A DNA stretch of 64,000 bases. Source: Trichoderma breve. Lineage: Eukaryota > Ascomycota > Sordariomycetes > Hypocreales > Hypocreaceae. A program made the position numbers and the translations under genes. Under the pieces are notes generated by a model. The model did not search any database, was not told where the DNA came from, and saw nothing but the letters and a program-made list of their open reading frames with translations. This document shows positions 5,928 through 49,016 of the stretch, one piece after another (within the stretch, counting starts at the first letter, position 1; each line of letters starts with the position of its first letter). The stretch lies in assembly GCF_028502605.1 (NCBI RefSeq), contig NC_079236.1, positions 2,728,001 through 2,792,000 of the forward strand. Reading direction: 5' to 3'.

Positions 5928-6034
5928 GTCTTCGTGGCGCAGTTGGCTAGCGCGTCAGTCTCATATTAGACGATATGATCCAAACATCAGTTTGGGCCAT
6001 CTGAAGGTCGTGAGTTCGAGCCTCACCGAGGACA
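5928..6034 (+). tRNA. tRNA-Met(CAT), elongator type, with 33-nt intron
   Basis: A full cloverleaf can be drawn. The acceptor arm GTCTTCG pairs with CGAGGAC (one G-T pair), the D stem is GCGC/GCGC, and the T arm GTGAG-TTCGAGC-CTCAC spans 6010-6026. The anticodon loop CTCATAA is interrupted after position 37 by an intron at 5966-5998. After its removal the anticodon arm reads GTCAGTCTCATAATCTGA, identical in core to yeast elongator tRNA-Met. The discriminator base is A at 6034. Removal of the intron needs the Sen2/15/34/54 endonuclease; the Sen54 gene lies at 47 kb in this window. Confidence 0.95.
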
Positions 6035-12740: not shown

Positions 12741-13204
12741 CCGCGTCAGATTGCTCTGTTGTCTTCGCAAGAGACTGATGTTTCCCGTTATTTAATAATT
12801 TACAAGTTCCTCTTTTGGGGAGCTTGTTCTGTTTATCTAGCGGAGTTTCTATTTGCCCAGTTGGGCGGGCATAGAAAGAGTTAGCAATCTGTGGTTGAAA
12901 AAGTGATCTCTTCTTGAACCAGCGCTCCTGGGAGACTGGTACGTACTATTTCCGGGCAACCGTTAATCCTGAAGAGTAATCCAACTCTTCTGCAGTGAAC
13001 TTTCTCCACCATCAATCGCAAGTACATCATCAAGATGTCCGAGTCAACGATGGATAAGGCTGTTAACATTGAAAGTGGTGCGGCTGGTGAGAGTTCGGCG
13101 GCCAAGGCAATCAAAGTCAAACTGAAGCAGTTGATGTGGCCATGATATATGTTCAATCCTCCTTGTGAGCCTGTTTTCTAAGTACTTGTAAAAAAAATAG
13201 CTAT

Positions 13205-14680: not shown

Positions 14681-14925
14681 CTACTTTCATCTACTATCTG
14701 CCAACTTCTTCCAGTATTATATAATCTCTTCCATTAACCGGTAGTTCTTCTAGTATCATTTACTCTCTTCTAGTATCCACTACTCTCTTCTAATATCTGC
14801 TACTCTCTTTTAATATCTACTTCTCTCTTCTAGTATCGATACTTTAGTTTACTATCCGCTACTTTCTTCTACTACTTGCTACTCTCTTCTGCTGTCGTTA
14901 CTTTCTTCTACTATCTGGTAACAAC
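14681..14925. repeat. 20-bp minisatellite, about 12 units
   Basis: The unit is close to TACTCTCTTCTAGTATCCAC. Three exact-length copies fill 14761-14820, and diverged copies extend on both sides with a steady period of 19-20. The plus strand is pyrimidine-rich. Confidence 0.9.
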
Positions 14926-15535: not shown

Positions 15536-16555
15536 AGCCTATATATCGCCTCACAACCTAGCTACACATGGGTAGTAATCGTTGCAGTGGATGAAGCGGC
15601 CAACATGAACCGGGCGGACCTCTACTGCGTCTGGGGCAACACTCTCTCCCCTTGCTTCCTTTTTGGCGACCCTAAGCAGCTACCTCCGACCGTTTTGACA
15701 ACCAACGATGAAGATGATGGCGACAACTTTCTCAACCGCTTCGCAAAATCTGGCGACATATCCCCCCTCCTTTTTTTCTAGGCCAGTGGCATCCCCGTCT
15801 ATCGTCTTACAACGCAGTTGCGGATGGGTAACGGGCTTTTCGATATGGTCTCTCGCATCATCTACCAAGGGGTGCCCCATGTATATGCCACTATCTGCAA
15901 CGTTGCGACAGCCTCTTTTGACTCTGGTAGGCCCCTGGAGAACTACATACAAGAAAAGTACCCGATTGTCACCCCTTCCCCCGAGGGCAAGCTCCTACCG
16001 GTCTTTATACACACTCCAAGCGCCCGAGTGCATACCAATGATACTACAGGCTCCAAGAAGAGCGTTGACCAGGTCACCATTGCCCTGGATTTCATGGTCG
16101 ATCTAGTCAAATCCAAAAACATTGACCTCTCTAAGATCGGCATCATCTCGCCATATGCGGCCAATGTGGAGCTCCTCGACCGCATGATACGCAAAAACGC
16201 CGCATACGAGGCGCTCAAGGGCACCCCTCCGGCGTCGACAGTTGATTCGTTCCAAGGTCAAGAAAACGATATCATCTTTGTCGTAATGGGCACCGCCTAC
16301 CCCAGACCTAGGCCTAGGTTCACAGCCCAGGAGCAGCGTCTTAATGTGATGCTTATATAGCGTTGTAGTAGATGTAGTAGATGTAGTAGATGTAGTAGCT
16401 ATAACATAGTGATCGGGGATATTTATGTCACTGAAGAATTGGTGGATGACGAGGGCAATGGCTTGATCAAGTCAAGATATAATGGCAGTAAATTGCTGGT
16501 AGAGTATCTTAAACGTCAAGGTTATTTCGTCAAGGCCTCACTCAATCCCTCGTAA
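15536..16555 (+). pseudogene. decayed SF1 (UPF1/DNA2-like) helicase, C-terminal half
   Basis: In successive segments of one reading sense the translation shows superfamily-1 helicase motifs in the right order: the Walker B-like VDEAANMNRADLY, motif III GDPKQLPPTV, GIPVYRLTTQLRMGNGLFD, ISPYAANVELLDRMI, STVDSFQGQENDIIFV (motif V) and RLNVML (start of motif VI), then IGDIYVTEELVDD. A stop at 15779 separates the second and third blocks. Motif VI is destroyed: after RLNVML come a stop and a 9-bp repeat expansion. The short piece at 15540-15580 matches the DNA that encodes the RLTTQL motif, so the 5' part is also rearranged. The ATP-binding N-terminal half is missing. Not functional. Confidence 0.85.
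16364..16401. repeat. 9-bp tandem repeat inside helicase motif VI
   Basis: TGTAGTAGA is repeated about 3.5 times, in frame, exactly where the conserved Thr-Arg-Ala-Arg-type helicase motif VI should be. Confidence 0.8.
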
Positions 16556-17511
16556 GATCTAGAAATCGTTTCACAGAGCTGGCCGGCTCATCACCATCCC
16601 GGTTACCAAAGAATCAGATTGCGAGGATCAGGCCCGTTTCTTCTCCATCATTTTACCTTTAAAGTACAACAATCGAATTCAACAATGATGATAAGCTATC
16701 GAAAATAGCCTGAAACTTTATGAAACGCCAACTTAGTTATGCAGCATCTCAGCGCAGAGCACGATTTGCTGGGCGTGATCAGGGCCATTGAAGGGCTGCA
16801 ATTTCCCTCCCAGCTTCAAAAAACGGTACCAAGGTTCTTCGCTAGTCCATGATCTGATGTCTTGCATCGACGTTCAAGATTTGTTCACATCTGAAGGGAG
16901 TTATCAAGGTGCTTCGCTAGATCGTCGTTGTCTTCCCGATATCTCATTGTCGTCAGTTGACCGAACTGTTGTATGGTTGAGTGGGTAGTGTCTCTGTCAA
17001 AACGATCCTGTAAGGGAATCTGGGCCTGGTGTGACGATGAAGCTGCCGTCACCAACACCACAAGGCCGGTGTGTACGGCCGACATAACCATCACCAACGC
17101 TTTGTTGTCGTCCCTTGACCACTGGGCAACTCGTGGCGTCTCATATTCTCTCCGTCTTCTTCTGTCCGTAGTATTTTCCTAGCCATGCTGGCTTCCAGCC
17201 ACTTACTTTTCTGCCCTTCAACTATACCTGTTGTTCTATAGCTGAGTATTTTCTAATCATCAATAACGCTTCCTCGGCGGGTTTCTATACAGATGGGCCA
17301 CCAAGTAAGAACCCTTTGGTATTTTCACTGAGATACACTGCCAGATGTCTCAATATCGTGTTTGCATATTGCCGTAGACAAGTGAATAAGGTATTTACTG
17401 TGAATTCTCTGGGAGGCTTGAGCAACCAATTTGATGAAGGAGTGCATTCTCCGACACATTCATTACATGCTTAGACAAAGAATGCATTGTGAAAAAAAGA
17501 AAAAGGAGAAG
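16556..17511. other. relic-rich intergenic stretch
   Basis: No intact gene. The stretch 17317-17440 resembles the flanks that accompany the Pol III-like repeats at 20.3-20.5 kb (shared TACACTG-CAGAT-TCTCA and TGAATAAGGTATTTA). Confidence 0.5.
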
Positions 17512-17697
17512 AAAAAAAGACTCTCCGTTGGAAATTCGAACTTGAGACTTCGTCAACAAAAAAGAATAAGGTGCAGTTGCCTAGGGACGCCAATTTTTAG
17601 GTCGGAATCGCGCCAGTCCTCGAAAGGAGCTGGCCCATAGGCAACTACACCACTCCCGAGGGAGCGATAGGTGTAACGTTTTTTACTCTTATATATG
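17512..17697 (-). repeat. Pol III-like structured repeat, copy A
   Basis: Read on the minus strand: a TATA-like ATATATAAGAG at 17697-17687, then a hairpin-forming CTCCCTCGGGAG, an A-box-like TGGTGTAGTTGCCTA, a second hairpin around CCAGCTCC, the complementary stem TAGGCAACTGCACC, a B-box-like AGTTCGAATTTCC near 17540, and a run of seven T's (17518-17512) as a possible Pol III stop. Copies B and C share the same order. It could be a tRNA-derived SINE or a family of small RNA genes. Confidence 0.6.
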
Positions 17698-19710
17698 ATC
17701 CTCCAGAGGACCCTTTTCCATGTAGCATTCGAGTTCACCAGTTCAAGCATAAATGCCAAGTCCTATCTGCAAATTACGGACTCACCTTTGGGGAAGAGAG
17801 CGGCAGTATCTGATTCTCGGGGGCTTTGGTATAAACAAGTAATATTGCCGAATTCTTACGTTCCCTTTGATGCAAATCAACGAGGTCCATCTTTATCAGG
17901 TAGTACAAAGAGACAACCTTGAACCTATGACCGAGATAGTGCGTATTATAGAAGGTCTCCCTGATATTCGGGAGAGATTCACAGAAATAGATAAGATCAT
18001 GTACGTGCAGACAACATGTATTTACCAGCGACTTCAACAATAATTGCAGGTCAAAAGGACTGGCAAGACCCAAGCTAGAAAATGAGTAAGTAAAGGGATT
18101 CATGCCGCTGTGCCCCCCTTATGATATTGAGGTCTAACGCTGGGCTTGTTCACTCTTGGACCCTGACGAGATAGAAGGACCCCCCCCCCCTCGGCCCTAT
18201 GAGGTAAACTGATTACTACTATAGGTATTAGGTATGGTGTGGGTGTTGTTTCCTAAAAATATGGCGCTCCTTCACGATCTTTACTTCGTTCGCTGTCCTT
18301 GGAAAGAGTTCGATTTCGGAGCCCTTCAAAAGCTGGCAGCCTGTCCATTTCTCTATCATTTGCTAGGTTTCTGTATCTCTTGCTTTTTGCCTCCGCGTCT
18401 TGTATCATCATGGTATCAAAGTGCTCTGCGTGGTTTCGAGTGGTTTCTAGCGCTCGATTTGCAGGGGCGTTGCCATTCTGAACGAGCGATGAGGTCGAGA
18501 CTGCATCATGATGAGAGTGTGCCATTTGCGTCTCTCCCCTGACTGTTGCAGCTAGGAGTTCTTCGTTTCTATGATGCCTGTTAGTCATCTGGAGAGTTGC
18601 TGACCTACTTATCACCTCCTGTGTCGGTTCTGTGCTGTTCGAGGTAGCCTCCCCAGCCAGGTCGATAATCTCTCGTGAAGGTCGGCAGACCATCCTCCAT
18701 TACTCGGAACTTCATCCCACTAAAGCTGTTCGTCAAGGATGGCAGGTTTTCTGAGCTCTTCAAAGACGGGAACTTTACCTTGGAGGGGATCTGTCAAAAG
18801 TCTGTCGAGACGCTGAAGGCCCTTGACCGAGTGCCTCATACAAGCCCCATAAACAAGTATGTGTCCCCTGACAGACGCCCAAACCAGATATGCAGCAACC
18901 CACTATGGGGGGACGTTGTATGTAATGGTTTGATCCTTCGAAGGAAGGCCTACGGGATCTGCGACTTCCGTCTTCAGATACCCTACCTGAAAGCGCTTAA
19001 CGTACCGTCGGGATCCTCAAAGAGCGGAGAAAGGTCGCCATGAAATTCCCAAACGACTTGCTCACTGAAGAGGACCTCCTGGGTTCTCGTTTCGCTTCTT
19101 GGAGGAATGAAACTGTGTCTGTGATTCTCGTGGTGTTAGTTAGTGAGCTCATTGTTCTAATTGATCATCTTCAGAGTCAGATATTCGGTCAACGTATTGC
19201 GTCGAGGTGTTGGGATGCCTTCCTCAGCACCCGGCTCAGCTTCAGCCGGCTCATCCATTACGAGTGGGCTGTCTTTTGTTTCCAGGATGAGCATCTCTGT
19301 TCCGCTAAATCAAGAACTCTCTTTATATTGTGCGGGTAGGACCTTTGTCAAAAGGGATTCGGCCGTTGGAGGTGGATAAATTCATGGCAGTCGAGTTCGA
19401 TTGATCACGTTCAGAGGTGCGTATGGAGGAGCAAAATAGCGAAGACGAGGCGAGAGAACAAAGAGAATGTTGCAGAAGAAAGCAGAAGGGTGCCTACTTT
19501 CTCTCATGAATGCGTTTCAGCTGCCAGGTAGTGCCAGCTGCACCTGTGGCTACCTGATTTCTCTCAGGGTTTAGCAGCAGGCAGAGGTACCAGTCTGAGT
19601 TACTTCTCCCCCTTTACGCTTAATCTCTTCTGGCTATTTCAGAATCGTCAATCAATTTCTTTTGGATCATAATAGCCCCCCCAAGGGAGTTTGATCTGCC
19701 CGTCTATGCG
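17698..19710. other. accessory stretch with unrecognised open frames
   Basis: Contains a C-run near 18181 and several open frames of 100-146 codons (for example 18253-18693 minus and 18675-19043 plus) that overlap on opposite strands. On the minus strand from 19300 to 18600 short protein-like pieces recur in different frames, such as VLFSEQVVWEFHGDLSP and KFRVMEDGLPTFTRDY, so one broken gene in that direction is likely. No family was recognised. Confidence 0.35.
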
Positions 19711-19772
19711 CTCTCTCGTATGAGTTAAATGGAAGACTCTTCTCGTGACATTACATTCGCAAATATATTAGG

Positions 19773-19955
19773 GAAAAAAAAGAAATCCTGTTCAAAATTC
19801 GAACCCACGACCAAAAAAGAATAAGGTGCTTGCTATCATCGTAAGGCTCAATGTGAACTGAACGTACCAGCCCCCTAAGGGGTCTGGTTTACCTCCCTAG
19901 GCAACTGCACCACCCCGAGGGGCGACAGGAACTGCATTATTTACTCCTATATACC
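19773..19955 (-). repeat. Pol III-like structured repeat, copy B
   Basis: On the minus strand: GGTATATAGGAG (19955-19944) as a TATA-like site, TCCTGTC at the 5' end, hairpin CCCCTCGGGG, A-box-like TGGTGCAGTTGCC (about 19913-19899), hairpin CCAGACCCC/GGGGGCTGG, B-box-like GGGTTCGAATTTT (19806-19795), ACAGGA that can pair with the 5' TCCTGT, then eight T's. The overall plan is that of a tRNA-like gene with a large insert between the boxes. This copy has lost the stem complement next to GCACCTTATTC. Confidence 0.7.
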
Positions 19956-20127
19956 TTAGGATCTACCTATAGCTAGTTTCTTCATTGTTATCAATACCGT
20001 GATATATAATACTGCCATGCATCTCAATACTATGCATGTACGCATCTTGTATAATTATTTGTGAGCTCTCTGACGGCCAGTCTGAAGGCGTACGTTTTCC
20101 CGGACATTATACTTGCAAACAGAGTAG

Positions 20128-20303
20128 AAAAAAAGAGGCCTGTTTTAAATTCGAACTCACGACCAAAAATGAAGAATAAGGTGCAGTGGCCTACCTCAAG
20201 ACGAGTCCGGATACGTACCAGTCCCCTAGAGGCTCTGGTCCGGTAGGCCACTGCACCACCCCCGAGAGGGCGACAGGAACTATGTTATTTACCCTTATAT
20301 ACC
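20128..20303 (-). repeat. Pol III-like structured repeat, copy C
   Basis: On the minus strand: GGTATATAAGGG (20303-20292), start near GTTCCTGTC at 20280, hairpin around CCCTCTCGGGGG, A-box-like TGGTGCAGTGGCCTACC, a perfectly complementary GGTAGGCCACTGCACC at 20195-20180, B-box-like GAGTTCGAATTT near 20150, ACAGG able to pair with the 5' CCTGT, and seven T's at 20134-20128. It is offset by 355 bp from copy B, and the flanks on both sides also match, so B and C are a tandem duplication of a larger unit. Confidence 0.7.
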
Positions 20304-21251
20304 TTAGTACTGACCTGTGAAGAGAGAGAACATTGGTTATCATCTTTCACGGGCTTCTGTATCATTATCATGATATACACTGTCAGATATCTCACTTCTG
20401 TGCATATGGCATACATGAATAAGGTATTTATTACTGCTCTTTGGTGAGATTGATATCCCCCCTTCTCCTCCACCAACCAGTTTGACAAAAAACGTACAGC
20501 ACACCTAAAAACCAGTCTCCTCCAAGAAATATATATACTACAGTACATGTATTAAGTAAGAGTCCAGTATCTCATCAGCCTCGTCATCGTTGAATACATG
20601 AAAAGAAGAAAGCCAGCTTCAGGAATTTTTTTATATAACAGAAGCCGCGCACTCCGGAATCCATCCCAGCACATATCCAGCGCATTCAATGTGCCAAAAC
20701 CGTGTATTGTCCCAGCCAGCTTGCGAGCGTCTCCAAAATAAAAGCCCTCCTCCCAAATAACCCCCCCTTCCCTCCCAGACCTCAAGCGGTCCGAGGTGGC
20801 CTAGAAACGCCATGCACTATGCCTTGAGTCAAAATATAGAGAAGCTGCTCCCACTTCCCACCTCAGTGGACCAAACAAGAAAAAACAAAATAAAAACGCC
20901 TTTTTCAAATGGGTATATGGTGTACCGTTTGTTGATAGCCAATCGTCTTCTTTTTCAAAACTCTCTGGCCAGTGGGTGCTGCTCGGACGTCTCGCTGTAT
21001 CGCACTCGGCTTGATCTCGCCGACGGGTCAGATTGATAATCTATCGCTCCTTGTGCTTGATTTAAGCATGCTCCCAGGTGTTCGAACGCCTGCGGCAAGG
21101 GCATACTTTGTATGCGTTGCTCTTTGCGACGCAGCTGTAGTCGAAGAGATAATCGCTTCTTGGCGCACATCTTTTCTGACTCTTTTTAAATTCTCATTTC
21201 TCCATGCCGGTCGGGCATGCTGAGTTTGGCTCTGTTGTAAAATCCACCAAA
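20304..21251. other. repeat flank and 3' region of the arrestin gene
   Basis: 20340-20470 is the right flank of the repeat unit (compare 17317-17440 and 19956-20050). The remainder is the 3' side of the minus-strand arrestin-fold gene. No coding frame is supported. Confidence 0.5.
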
Positions 21252-37847: not shown

Positions 37848-40800
37848 GAAACGATGCTATCAAAGCACTATTACCGGGTCAAGGCTGACCGGCCGGTAGT
37901 ATTTTTGTCTTGTCAGCCGGCGAGAAGCTCGGCTGGGTCCGATGGACGTAAACACCGAATACCACAATACAGATTTAGCCGACGGAGAGTGAGACTGAGA
38001 CTTGAAGTGTGGAAAGCACAGAGGGCATCAAGATAAGAAACAGGGGCGTTGTCGAGGCGGGAGATACACGTGATGGCGACGAAGTTTGGTGATGACAAAC
38101 TGTGCCTACGAATTTATGGCTTAGGGAAAAAAGGAAAAGGAAAAAAAGAAAGAGAAGAAGAAAAAGAAGAGGAGGAGAATATTTCGAAACGATATTATGA
38201 GGATCCCGCAAGTAGCCTCTGTCCGGACCTGGGCTGAAGAGAGATTGTCGGGTCCCGGAAACCAACAGACCTGATCGGCTGCGAGTCTGAGTCTAATCGG
38301 TGACAAGGGGGGGGTGTGCGATGCAAAAGACGAACATGGAGCTAAATAACGAGAGCAGGTGGGAATCCAAGAGGGAAAAAAAAAATGGAAAAAAAGCAAG
38401 GGCGTAACGAGTGAATAATCAGGTCGCCACCCCCGAAAGATACTAGCACAATATACGAGCTGGTGCTAATTGATTAATACAGCTTTTTTTACGAGTACTG
38501 TACTTGGCCGGACAAATTCGCCGTATTCTGAAATGACTCGAAAACGATGGGCGATGAGAGAGGAAGAGGGGAAGAGGGCAGAAGTTAAAAAAAAAAAAAA
38601 GTTACAAAAAAAAAAAGAAGAAGAGCGGAAAGGAAAGAAAAGGACAGAAATCGAACAGAAACAGCCAAGATGAATGCTATACTTGTCCCCTTGTTCAATC
38701 AACTGTTCAATATACTCGTACTATCTCTGATTGACTTTTCGCCACACACAGAAGGCACTGAGAGAGAAATGGAGCAGCAGAAAGGGAGGAAATTAGCTGT
38801 TCTAGCGGAAAGGAAGGGTTAATATGGGACTCTGTAGACTACATGACTACCTACGACTACCTCTACAGCCCCGATCCGTCTAGACGCTGCGCTGAACGAC
38901 AACGAAAGAAAAGAAAAAGCCCAGCGAGAGGGAGGGGGCGTGTGATTGTGATGGACGACCAAAGTTGCGACAAGTTGAGCTACTTTGGACGGGTCCCCTA
39001 GAACGCAGAGTGGAGGCGGGTGCAGGGGTGCGAAAGTTGTCGTAACGGGTAATGAATAAATGAGACAAGAGACACAGTCGTGTCTTGGTTCCTTCTCAAG
39101 GGATGGCGCATGATATATTGGATTGGCTTGACTCGGTGCGAGCGAGAGGCTGGCGAGACAAGGCCAAGCAGGACTCATCAGAGACAAGCAAAGCAACACA
39201 TAAGTATACCGACTCGGACAGCCATTCATTTATCCATTCCTGTGCCTGTGCTTGCTTCCGTGATCCTATCCGGTAGCACATCAATACTGTATGATAGCTG
39301 AGGTACCTACTTCTACTACGAGTACTATTGATTGCCAAGTGCTACAAGGACCATTGGATGTATCCGCTCCCCTCCTTCGTAGGTAATGATGCATTACAGT
39401 ATGGCAACTAGTATATGCACGAGCTAGGCACAACGGCATCCTATAGCATGCGCCCAAGGCACCAATCACCGTCGAACGAGCATCTCGAGCTATGACAGAT
39501 ACGAAGCGCCGAGAGAAGGCCATGAATAACTTGACATAATATTGCCGCACCCTCGCTGCTGCGGTGAATCGAGATCCTGCTTGGGGGGCTGATTGGCTGT
39601 TGCCTCGATACTACTGCGAGTAGTAACTAGGGGACCAGACGCCAGCCTCGTCACATGTTCCCGCAAATGGACACAACGACAAAAGTAATCGTTTGTAATC
39701 GTCAGAGGCAAGGCGGACTATTGACGTGCATTTCCCGTTTGTTGTGCTGAATACGCACGCATTATATTTGGCGCTCCTTACAAGCACCCAAGCCCGGCTC
39801 AAGCCACCAAAGCTGTAATACGCCGCAGGCTAGGAGATAACAGTGGTTCAGAAGGATCGAGTCCATAAATGCGAAATACGATCAAACCCGCTCAGAGGTT
39901 TTAGGCGGGAACTTTTTGGGGCTGTACTTTGTGAATTGATACTGGAGCAGCTGCTTGGCATTAACAAAGCAGATGCATTTTCGGCGCAGGGCCAAGGCGG
40001 CGAGACTTGGGAAATGAGATGGATAAAAAAAAGTTCTCAGCGTCGTATTATTAGCTTCTGGTTGTGTCTCTCTCCCTTCAACCAACCTTGCGTGGTAGTA
40101 CTACTGTAGGAAGAGCTTGTTGGTGAGCACGCAAGTCTTTCTCCTTTGGGAAGCGCAGATTAATATACAAACCAGCATAAATTCCGAGGCACGGAGCAAA
40201 AAAATAATGACAAAACGAATTGCCTGAAGCCCCAAAATAAAAACAAACCATAACAGGAAAAAAATGAAAATAAAAAAAAGTCCGCGCCCAGTCAAAATGG
40301 CGGTGCACCCGGCACGGCGCAACTGTCATTCTGGCGGAGAAAATACGCACATGGGCTCAGTTCACATGTTGGCCTTTGGGGCCGAGTCTCCGTTGCCCAA
40401 AGAGCGCACGGGCGCAGGGCCGTCGTTCGATTTTCAGTTGCGCCAAGTTTAGTTTTGGAATCTATTCTTCCGCATTACTCCATACGAATATACGACGGAT
40501 CACCATAGCCCATAGCCCATAGCCCATAGCCCATAGCCCATAGGTACCTTGGGTTACTAAAACCGAAACAGGGACTTACTTTGCTGTGATAGGCAAGGAG
40601 TACGAGGCAGCCAGCAGAATGTCGGCAGATAGATAGATAGGGGGACCACCCAATCAACCAATTGTTCAATCAAGTAGTCCAATGCAATCAACAGATGGAT
40701 GATCAATTAAGTTGAAATAGTTCAAATTAAGATGGAAATGCAAAAAGTTATCGTGTCAGTTGCATAACTCGCCCGTTTCACCAGTGCTGCTAGTAGAGAA

Positions 40801-47022: not shown

Positions 47023-48414
47023 TCACCGCCCTCCTCTTCCTCGGCCTCTCCCTCTTCCGCGGCCGCGACCACCGCCGCGACCGCCTTTCTTACCACCTCT
47101 TCCGCTGTTTCTATTATCGAATCTTTCAAACAGTTGTTCCTCTCCAAATGCGCCCTCTCCAAATCTCATAAAGTTGACTAATCCTCTGTCCACCACAGCC
47201 ACAAGCACGTTCCTATGCCCGTGCTTTAATCGCTGATACAGCCTCCCGGGATTTCCTCGCCATGCTTCTGGCGCAGGATCATACGGTGTCGATTCTAGCA
47301 ATGTCTCAATCTGTTCCAGTGTTGGAAGACATGAGTCGGCTGTGTCGGCCACGGCAATTCGGAAATCTGGGGGCGGAGGATTCTTCTTGGAGAACCCGCC
47401 CGCGCCCGGCTTCCATACGTGGAAGTGCACTCGGAAGGGGTCCTCTGGCTTGGATGGGCTCGGTGGTACAGGGAGAGGCTTGTGTCGAGGCACAAGGGCC
47501 AGTTGCTGGTATATAGGTCGATAGGACCGGTACAGTCCCGGCGCGACAAGCGGGCCAAATGGCTGCTGTCGATGTTTCCCATCCTGTCCCGTTTCCCATT
47601 TGACAAAGGAAAAGAGCCATTGCCATAGCGTCTGCGAAGGTTCCGTTGGCTCTGGTCTCGGTTGTTCAGGCGGCGCGCGGAGGATGTTAAATCCCGCCCG
47701 CTTCAGATGGGCGTAGACCTGGTACTTGGGCAGCGTTGTCTTGCCCTGCTCATCCTCGTAGCCGATAAAAAGCGAATATGCAGCTTCCAGACTCAGCGGT
47801 AGTCCAACGTCGTAATCGTCCGGACCAAAGCCAGGCCGAGGCGGTCCGCTAGTAGCGCTTCCCTTGGGCACGAGGGTTTCAAAGTCGGTATATGGCCACC
47901 ATAGGTCAATAGTGCCTCTCTCGACAAGATAGATGGCTTCTTCAGGAAGCAGCCATAGCCTTCCCACGCCAAGCTGATCTTTGCTCCCAGAGGCCACTCT
48001 TCCAATGTCCTTCATCCAGCCTCCCTTCTCGTGCTCCATAACCACCACGCGGTCCTTTAGCCACATGCCCTCGTAATCGAGCGCAACGTTTGTCTCGTCC
48101 ATCCAAAAATCTGGAAAACACCAGCCTCTAGCCCACGCATCGCCTTTATGTATCCTTGTGTAGCTCAAAACATCCTCCAGCGCCCTGCGACTCGATTCTA
48201 GCGCTCCGTCCTGAGCTCTGGTCCCGTGCGTTTCAAAGTCTTTCTCGCCCTTCCGGATCGTCTGGCTGGAGACGCCCTTTTTCGAAAATGCGGATGCAAA
48301 CAGCTTGTAGTCGGGCATGTCGTCCTCCAGAGTTTCCTCCACAGTCGGGGCACCTTCACTATCCACAGGAGCTGGGCCCGCTGCCAGCGGGCTATCGTCG
48401 TCGTCAAACGCCAT
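47023..48414 (-). CDS. SEN54: tRNA-splicing endonuclease subunit Sen54
   Basis: A single exon of 463 residues from the ATG at 48414 (ACAAGATGGC, MAFDDDDSPLAAG). The frame extends upstream to 48555 with a basic, unlikely extension, so the inner ATG is preferred. The Sen54 N-terminal domain is clear at about 105-205: ARGWCFPDFWMDETNVALDY, GGWMKDIGRVA and LWLLPEEAIYLVERGTIDLW. A C-terminal domain with YQVYAHLKRAGFNILR at about 265 precedes a Pro-rich stretch, and DPFRVHFHVWKP lies near 360. The last 25 residues are an Arg-Gly repeat tail (GRGRGRGRGG), unusual in this family and likely to bind RNA. Sen54 is a structural subunit that helps position the pre-tRNA in the Sen2/15/34/54 complex. Two tRNA genes with introns are in the same window. 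Confidence 0.93.
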   Translation of the reverse strand: MAFDDDDSPLAAGPAPVDSEGAPTVEETLEDDMPDYKLFASAFSKKGVSSQTIRKGEKDFETHGTRAQDGALESSRRALEDVLSYTRIHKGDAWARGWCFPDFWMDETNVALDYEGMWLKDRVVVMEHEKGGWMKDIGRVASGSKDQLGVGRLWLLPEEAIYLVERGTIDLWWPYTDFETLVPKGSATSGPPRPGFGPDDYDVGLPLSLEAAYSLFIGYEDEQGKTTLPKYQVYAHLKRAGFNILRAPPEQPRPEPTEPSQTLWQWLFSFVKWETGQDGKHRQQPFGPLVAPGLYRSYRPIYQQLALVPRHKPLPVPPSPSKPEDPFRVHFHVWKPGAGGFSKKNPPPPDFRIAVADTADSCLPTLEQIETLLESTPYDPAPEAWRGNPGRLYQRLKHGHRNVLVAVVDRGLVNFMRFGEGAFGEEQLFERFDNRNSGRGGKKGGRGGGRGRGRGRGRGRGGR

Positions 48415-49016
48415 CTTGTCTGTATGGGATGCACTGTCCAAGGAAGAGAGAAAGTATAGTCTCAGGTGCCGCCAAGTAGTCCGATGGCAGGTTGAGGCGC
48501 GACGGCGCAAACGAAATTCTGCGCTCTTTGCTGCGTTATGCCTGAGGCGCCGCAAAAAGAATCATCTGCTTGCCAAAGCCCTGCATGCGTAAATCTTGCT
48601 GCCAGAAACTAAAGCAAAAATAATCATGCCATCGCACTCTCAGTAAATGAAATGAATATCGGGATCGCGAAGAAAAGAAAAAACTTCAAAGGTTGTACAG
48701 ATTGGCTGTATCGCGATGCTCGGGTGGGGTTGGGATTTTCCCATGGATTCTCACCACCAAAAGTTTGTGTGAAAAACGTACCGTACTTGGTATTCTCTAC
48801 GTCAGACACGTGAGAAATGCTGGTCGGGTACGTACCTAGACTAACGTCGGTATCTGGTAGTTGAGGAAGGTGCACCTTCCAAGAAGTGTGCTTCCGATAA
48901 CGATTGGCCCGAAACGGGAATTCAGGGTCTTCACATGTCACTTTCACAGGTCACTTACACGATGCCTTCAACTCCTTGATATAAGAGAATAACGCCAATC
49001 CCTTCAACAATCAATA
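48415..49016. other. intergenic between SEN54 and tRNA-Leu
   Basis: Upstream flank of SEN54 and 5' flank of the tRNA gene. Nothing else recognised. Confidence 0.5.

Follow-up and report, generated by a model that had tools for sequence, protein, structure and literature searches.

The window analysed here, a 64,000-nucleotide stretch of Trichoderma breve DNA, contains on its minus strand three related copies, A, B and C, each with a TATATA box, an A box, a B-box-like site and a run of T's. Measured from the TATATA box to the T-run, copy A occupies positions 17512..17695, copy B 19774..19953 and copy C 20128..20301, and the RNAs predicted from them would run from about 17665 to 17515, from about 19923 to 19778 and from about 20271 to 20131, respectively (all features of the copies given below lie on the same strand). 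The TATATA boxes are found at 17690..17695 in A, 19948..19953 in B and 20296..20301 in C, the B-box-like sites, GTTCGAATTT in every case, at 17532..17541, 19795..19804 and 20147..20156, and the T-runs at 17512..17518 (T7), 19774..19781 (T8) and 20128..20134 (T7). The spacing of these elements varies little: from TATATA to the A box there are 43, 41 and 43 bp in A, B and C, from the A box to the B-box-like site 111, 108 and 102 bp, and from there to the T-run 14, 14 and 13 bp. The initial annotation, made from the letters of the sequence, had named these motifs, and all of them were found on the minus strand at the places it gave.

The A box of all three copies fits the pattern TRGYNNARNNG, and the B-box-like site of all three matches eight of the nine positions of GWTCRANNC, the exception being the final position, which is T where the consensus has C, so that a strict pattern misses the copies. 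Because this T is common to all three, the last B-box position was left free in a loose pattern of the four-element layout, which is therefore a pattern fitted to the data; its only matches in 144 kb are the three copies, and 20 dinucleotide shuffles yield none. A generic A-box/B-box/T pattern that demands the canonical C picks out the two known tRNA genes of the window and one further place, and A, B and C are not among its matches. A match to this generic pattern at 39844-39917 on the plus strand, where Rfam reports no tRNA, is probably due to chance.

Between copies, BLAST aligns B with C at 75% identity (E 2e-25) and A with C at 70% (E 1e-16); over the whole interval from TATA to T-run, identity is 64% for A and B, 72% for A and C, and 73% for B and C.

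Fold of the predicted RNAs

The core of the fold consists of a 5′ hairpin (P2), a 14-bp stem (P3) and an inner hairpin (P3a). The 5′ arm of P3, at 17638..17651 in A, 19898..19911 in B and 20244..20257 in C, overlaps the A box, and its 3′ arm lies at 17570..17583 in A and at 20180..20193 in C. The inner hairpin occupies 17612..17634 in A, 19866..19888 in B and 20217..20239 in C, with the loops UUCG, UUAG and, in the aligned structure, CUAG; it is built from CCAG, one bulged base, four pairs, a tetraloop, four pairs and CUGG, and copy C lacks the first of the four inner pairs. The loop of the 5′ hairpin reads CUCG by eye in all three copies, and the aligner misplaces it in B.

In a MAFFT alignment of the three copies, 28 core pairs in the three helices are formed in 89.3% of cells, and two-sided compensatory changes occur at five of these pairs, a number reached by 4 of 500 shuffles. 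When the 3′ partners were slid along the alignment as a control, zero to two two-sided pairs and 37–45% pairing remained. The covariation that had been suggested from the sequences is thus present in the aligned copies, and the inner hairpin does keep its pairing with different bases from copy to copy, with 96% of its cells paired, which makes it the better-kept helix. These counts come from three sequences, on which any judgement of a fold is a weak test, and the RNAalifold covariation term is just −0.1. Folding z-scores calculated from the predicted start are −4.4 for A, −2.4 for B and −2.6 for C.

The copies do not adhere to this fold equally. In A and C the long stem comprises 14–16 perfect or near-perfect base pairs, and the 16-nt arm of copy C with its exact complement, noticed at the outset, is indeed present; of the 14 aligned positions of the long arm in B, only 8 are paired. 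The best unconstrained fold of B is a different one, 3.1 kcal/mol better than the fold in which the inner hairpin is enforced and 4.8–5.9 kcal/mol better than folds to which stem pairs are added.

Long stems of this kind raise the question of whether the copies might be Pol III-transcribed precursors of microRNA-like small RNAs, with P3 cut by Dicer in the manner of the Neurospora milR genes. The milR genes are, by analogy, the nearest fungal precedent: they too belong to a filamentous ascomycete and yield short Pol III transcripts that end in T clusters (as reported for four milR genes) and are associated with TATA-like elements, the primary milR-1 RNA is about 170 nt long, and milR-4 derives from a tRNA-containing transcript (PMC3547838). 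The stems of A and C would suit such a role. The same report describes milR-1 without a predicted A or B box and demonstrates small RNAs (PMC3547838), which for A, B and C would be putative. The P3 stem is moreover short and opens into a branched inner part, and in B six of its 14 aligned pairs are broken while the inner hairpin is the helix that is better kept. In two Trichoderma milRNA papers, the main text contains no short words from the arms; in a third, a table of T. asperellum milRNAs includes one with the 7-mer GTGCAGT of the A-box region, followed by a different continuation (PMC8297844). A re-analysis of fungal hairpins describes one hairpin locus that occurs in 15 Sordariomycetes and has small RNAs in T. 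reesei (PMC9757828); this locus, compared by description alone, might be the family described here. Taken together, we regard the precursor reading as the foremost rival and as an unlikely one.

Predicted promoter elements and a probable tRNA link

A useful yardstick for the promoter is U6 of the same genome (locus L005), where TATATATT (TATATA) precedes the start of the gene by 28 bp and the intron contains a GTTCGAAT box. TATA-like boxes are seen by eye upstream of the U6, SRP and RNase P genes, and upstream of the MRP gene by eye there is an A-rich stretch only. Among 30 fetched tRNA loci, TATAWW occurs between −50 and −15 in six, compared to 2.4% of random stretches. The U6 gene, in the region C3:3415326-3415394, appears by eye to be interrupted by an intron with a B box of the tRNA type, GTTCGAATC.

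By analogy with the U6 spacing, the RNA of the family would start near the G that opens the 5′ hairpin. Applying this spacing to the copies bears on an acceptor-stem-like pairing between CCTGT and ACAGG that the initial annotation had pointed out: the pairing exists in B and C but is broken in A, and by the U6 spacing the CCTGT would lie at or just upstream of the predicted start. The family and U6 are alike in having TATATA 28 bp before the start (the family start being set by this very spacing, and that of U6 by eye), in having a GTTCGAAT box within the gene and in an RNA that opens (for the family, by prediction) with a small tetraloop hairpin. They differ in that the U6 box is intronic, and covariance searches give homology scores no higher than 9 bits.

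The boxes themselves look like those of tRNA genes. Ungapped matching of the A-box segments (19 nt) and B-box segments (22 nt) of the copies covered 65 sequences, 42 of them unique: the U6 intron and 64 tRNA genes, a set for which 63 of 1209 tRNA candidates had been scored and which left out three further tRNA-Met genes. The best of the sequences compared was the tRNA gene at 5928-6034 of the window, with 85 of 123 positions, followed by one read as tRNA-Asn with 76; the rest scored 59–73, and shuffled tRNAs reached at most 73. By eye this gene, on the plus strand, encodes an elongator tRNA-Met (CAT) with an intron; it was missed by ARAGORN, and Rfam gives it 50.3 bits, naming only tRNA. The genome has four tRNA-Met genes of this type, the one 12 kb from the family and three others that are 91–97% identical. 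The copies have tRNA-Met-like A- and B-box segments and no full tRNA domain, and neither ARAGORN nor Rfam reports a tRNA match at any of the three. It is probable from these matches that the promoter boxes were taken from a tRNA, the elongator-type tRNA-Met being the best match. The B-box segment of copy A is closer to the U6 intron (17/22) than to the tRNA-Met (13/22), and shared promoter constraint is therefore a live alternative to descent.

Probable local duplication and the search for further copies

Outside the copies, similarity soon fades. Comparisons of the flanks give 39–59% identity, where random 150-mers average 42% and do not exceed 52% (30 pairs), such that most flanks are near background, and the higher values are largely due to a spacer element. 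This element occurs, on the minus strand, upstream of C (20359..20443), upstream of B and downstream of C (19988..20072), and downstream of A (17320..17397). The spacer upstream of C is related to both of the others, each comparison exceeding all 300 shuffles; the spacer upstream of B compared with that downstream of A is matched by 28 of 300 shuffles and shows no clear excess. A and B are separated by a 2-kb stretch free of spacer elements. This pattern fits a history in which a unit of about 350 bp was duplicated in tandem, with loss later on.

Duplication of this sort could have left decaying or neutral duplicates of one RNA gene, of which at most one works. The departure of copy B from the shared fold and the persistence of spacer elements without a gene downstream of A would fit such a history, as would a possible relic, E, found outside the window and described below. 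What argues against it is that the TATA box, the A box, the B-box-like site and the T-run have kept a near-constant spacing in all three copies while the flanks drifted to near background, and that pairs have been kept by changes on both sides. We therefore consider mere decay to be quite improbable as an account of the copies.

The genome searched amounts to 38.5 Mb in 9 contigs, with the window on a 4.2-Mb contig, and all counts of DNA matches are lower bounds. Copy C as a query finds at least three places, and all matches listed are A, B and C; copy A with its 3′ flank finds the same copies among the matches listed. A pattern for the 3′ half of the family has at least three matches genome-wide and its reversed control none, and a pattern for the 5′ half has at least five, all of those listed falling within A, B and C (the three 5′ arms and, on the opposite strand, two 3′ arms). 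Searching the genome for all copies, as first proposed, thus returned A, B and C, with no further intact copies among the matches listed. One family pattern has no match in viral or prokaryote contigs, and a chance reading frame over copy C, used as a protein query, had no match.

A covariance model of the family was run on 12 kb around the cluster (filters off), on the window together with 34 loci (default filters) and on 80 kb flanks (filters off), and in none of these runs did anything other than A, B and C exceed 20 bits. The next scores were those of a place called D (19.2 bits, E value 0.019, in the window plus 34 loci) and of the opposite strand of C (18.4 bits, in the 12 kb), the latter because of the stem of copy C. 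The inner-hairpin pattern ACCAGN{9,16}CTGGTACGT has at least four matches in the genome, against about 2.3 expected by base composition and two for the reversed control. All four matches listed fall within 24 kb on the contig of the window: B, C, D, which starts at window position 12918, and E, at C5:2724375. On the 5′ side of E, the match to the family is equalled by only 0.65% of 2000 random places when the best score is taken and by 3% with the summed score; the 3′ side of E and both sides of D match the family no better than random places do, and E is absent from the results of the covariance search of the 80 kb flanks. It is plausible that E is a relic of the family, and uncertain whether D, at 12918..12944 on the plus strand, where the hairpin stands alone between unrelated flanks, is another.

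A tRNA-derived SINE, the other reading first put forward, would account for the A and B boxes, the tRNA-like segments and the T-run, but is highly improbable, given that among the genome matches listed the copies lie only within 2.8 kb, that an exact-word test for target-site duplication found no common word of 6–12 nt between the 5′ and 3′ flanks of the three copies, and that a TATA box upstream of the transcribed part and the spacer elements were duplicated too, as in a duplicated gene. Fungal SINEs such as AfuSINE2 also contain tRNA-related sequence but are described as carrying target-site duplications of 4–14 bp (PMC5063351); for A, B and C the exact-word test found none, and among the matches listed they sit in one stretch.

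A candidate family of Pol III RNA genes

Overall, we think it probable that A, B and C are three small non-coding RNA genes that form one family, duplicated locally, with Pol III most likely transcribing them. The layout, the covariation and the tRNA-type boxes all support what had been suggested from the outset, a family of small structured RNAs with the build of a Pol III gene. In the mechanism that we propose, TFIIIC would be drawn to the A and B boxes of tRNA type, and TFIIIB/TBP would be positioned by the TATATA box about 28–30 bp before the start. The resulting RNA, of a predicted 140–150 nt, would consist of the P2 hairpin with its CUCG loop at the 5′ end, the long P3 stem enclosing P3a, and a U-rich tail extending to the T7–T8 run. 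The fold may serve to stabilise the RNA, which could then act as a structured regulatory or scaffold RNA.

In architecture, the closest described counterpart is, by analogy, the set of rodent 4.5SI RNA genes, three genes of tRNA origin that lie in a cluster, 4–40 kb apart, with A and B boxes, a TATA-like box at −31/−24, a T6-7 terminator and a 16-bp stem that stabilises the RNA (PMC10137851). The likeness is one of architecture only, with no descent claimed: a cluster of three genes, a TATA-like box combined with A and B boxes, a T-run and a long stem. The 4.5SI RNA differs in being 98 nt long, against about 140–150 nt here, in the spacing of its A and B boxes (32 bp, against 102–111 bp) and in that its long stem is terminal, whereas that of A, B and C is internal (PMC10137851).

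No Rfam 15 covariance model matched between 17300 and 20600 up to an E value of 5, and the family was not recognised under any description in the literature, as judged from titles and the openings of abstracts, mostly outside the subscription journals. H/ACA, Sm-site and ribozyme readings were considered by eye and set aside, as no such feature seemed common to the three copies. A more far-reaching and distinctly tentative possibility is that the family represents an undescribed class of fungal Pol III RNA, one that may have originated from a tRNA promoter near a tRNA-Met gene, expanded locally, and yielded an RNA with a 5′ tetraloop hairpin like that of U6, a conserved branched core and a regulatory role specific to its lineage, like that of 4.5S-type or vault RNAs. 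To our knowledge, few-copy, lineage-specific Pol III RNAs are mostly represented by animal examples. In a genetically tractable mould, a cluster of three genes whose tRNA-type promoter can be read would offer a route to testing how a tRNA promoter gives rise to a new structured RNA gene, and would also allow one to ask whether such RNAs enter the fungal small-RNA pathway.

Elsewhere in the window, a Pfam scan of ten long reading frames found ordinary domains in seven. The window also encodes a ZPR1 protein that matches one of Trichoderma harzianum at 100% identity along all 419 residues of the query, in keeping with a T. harzianum-like source. At 47023-48555 on the minus strand lies a Sen54-type subunit of the tRNA-splicing endonuclease (Pfam PF12928); that two intron-bearing tRNA genes share the window with it is likely a coincidence. 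At 14682-14922 there is an imperfect tandem repeat, its unit of about 20 bp being AGAAGAGAGTAG-like when read on the minus strand, and an open frame at 15782-16360 on the plus strand resembles, from its translation by eye, the end of a superfamily-1 RNA/DNA helicase.
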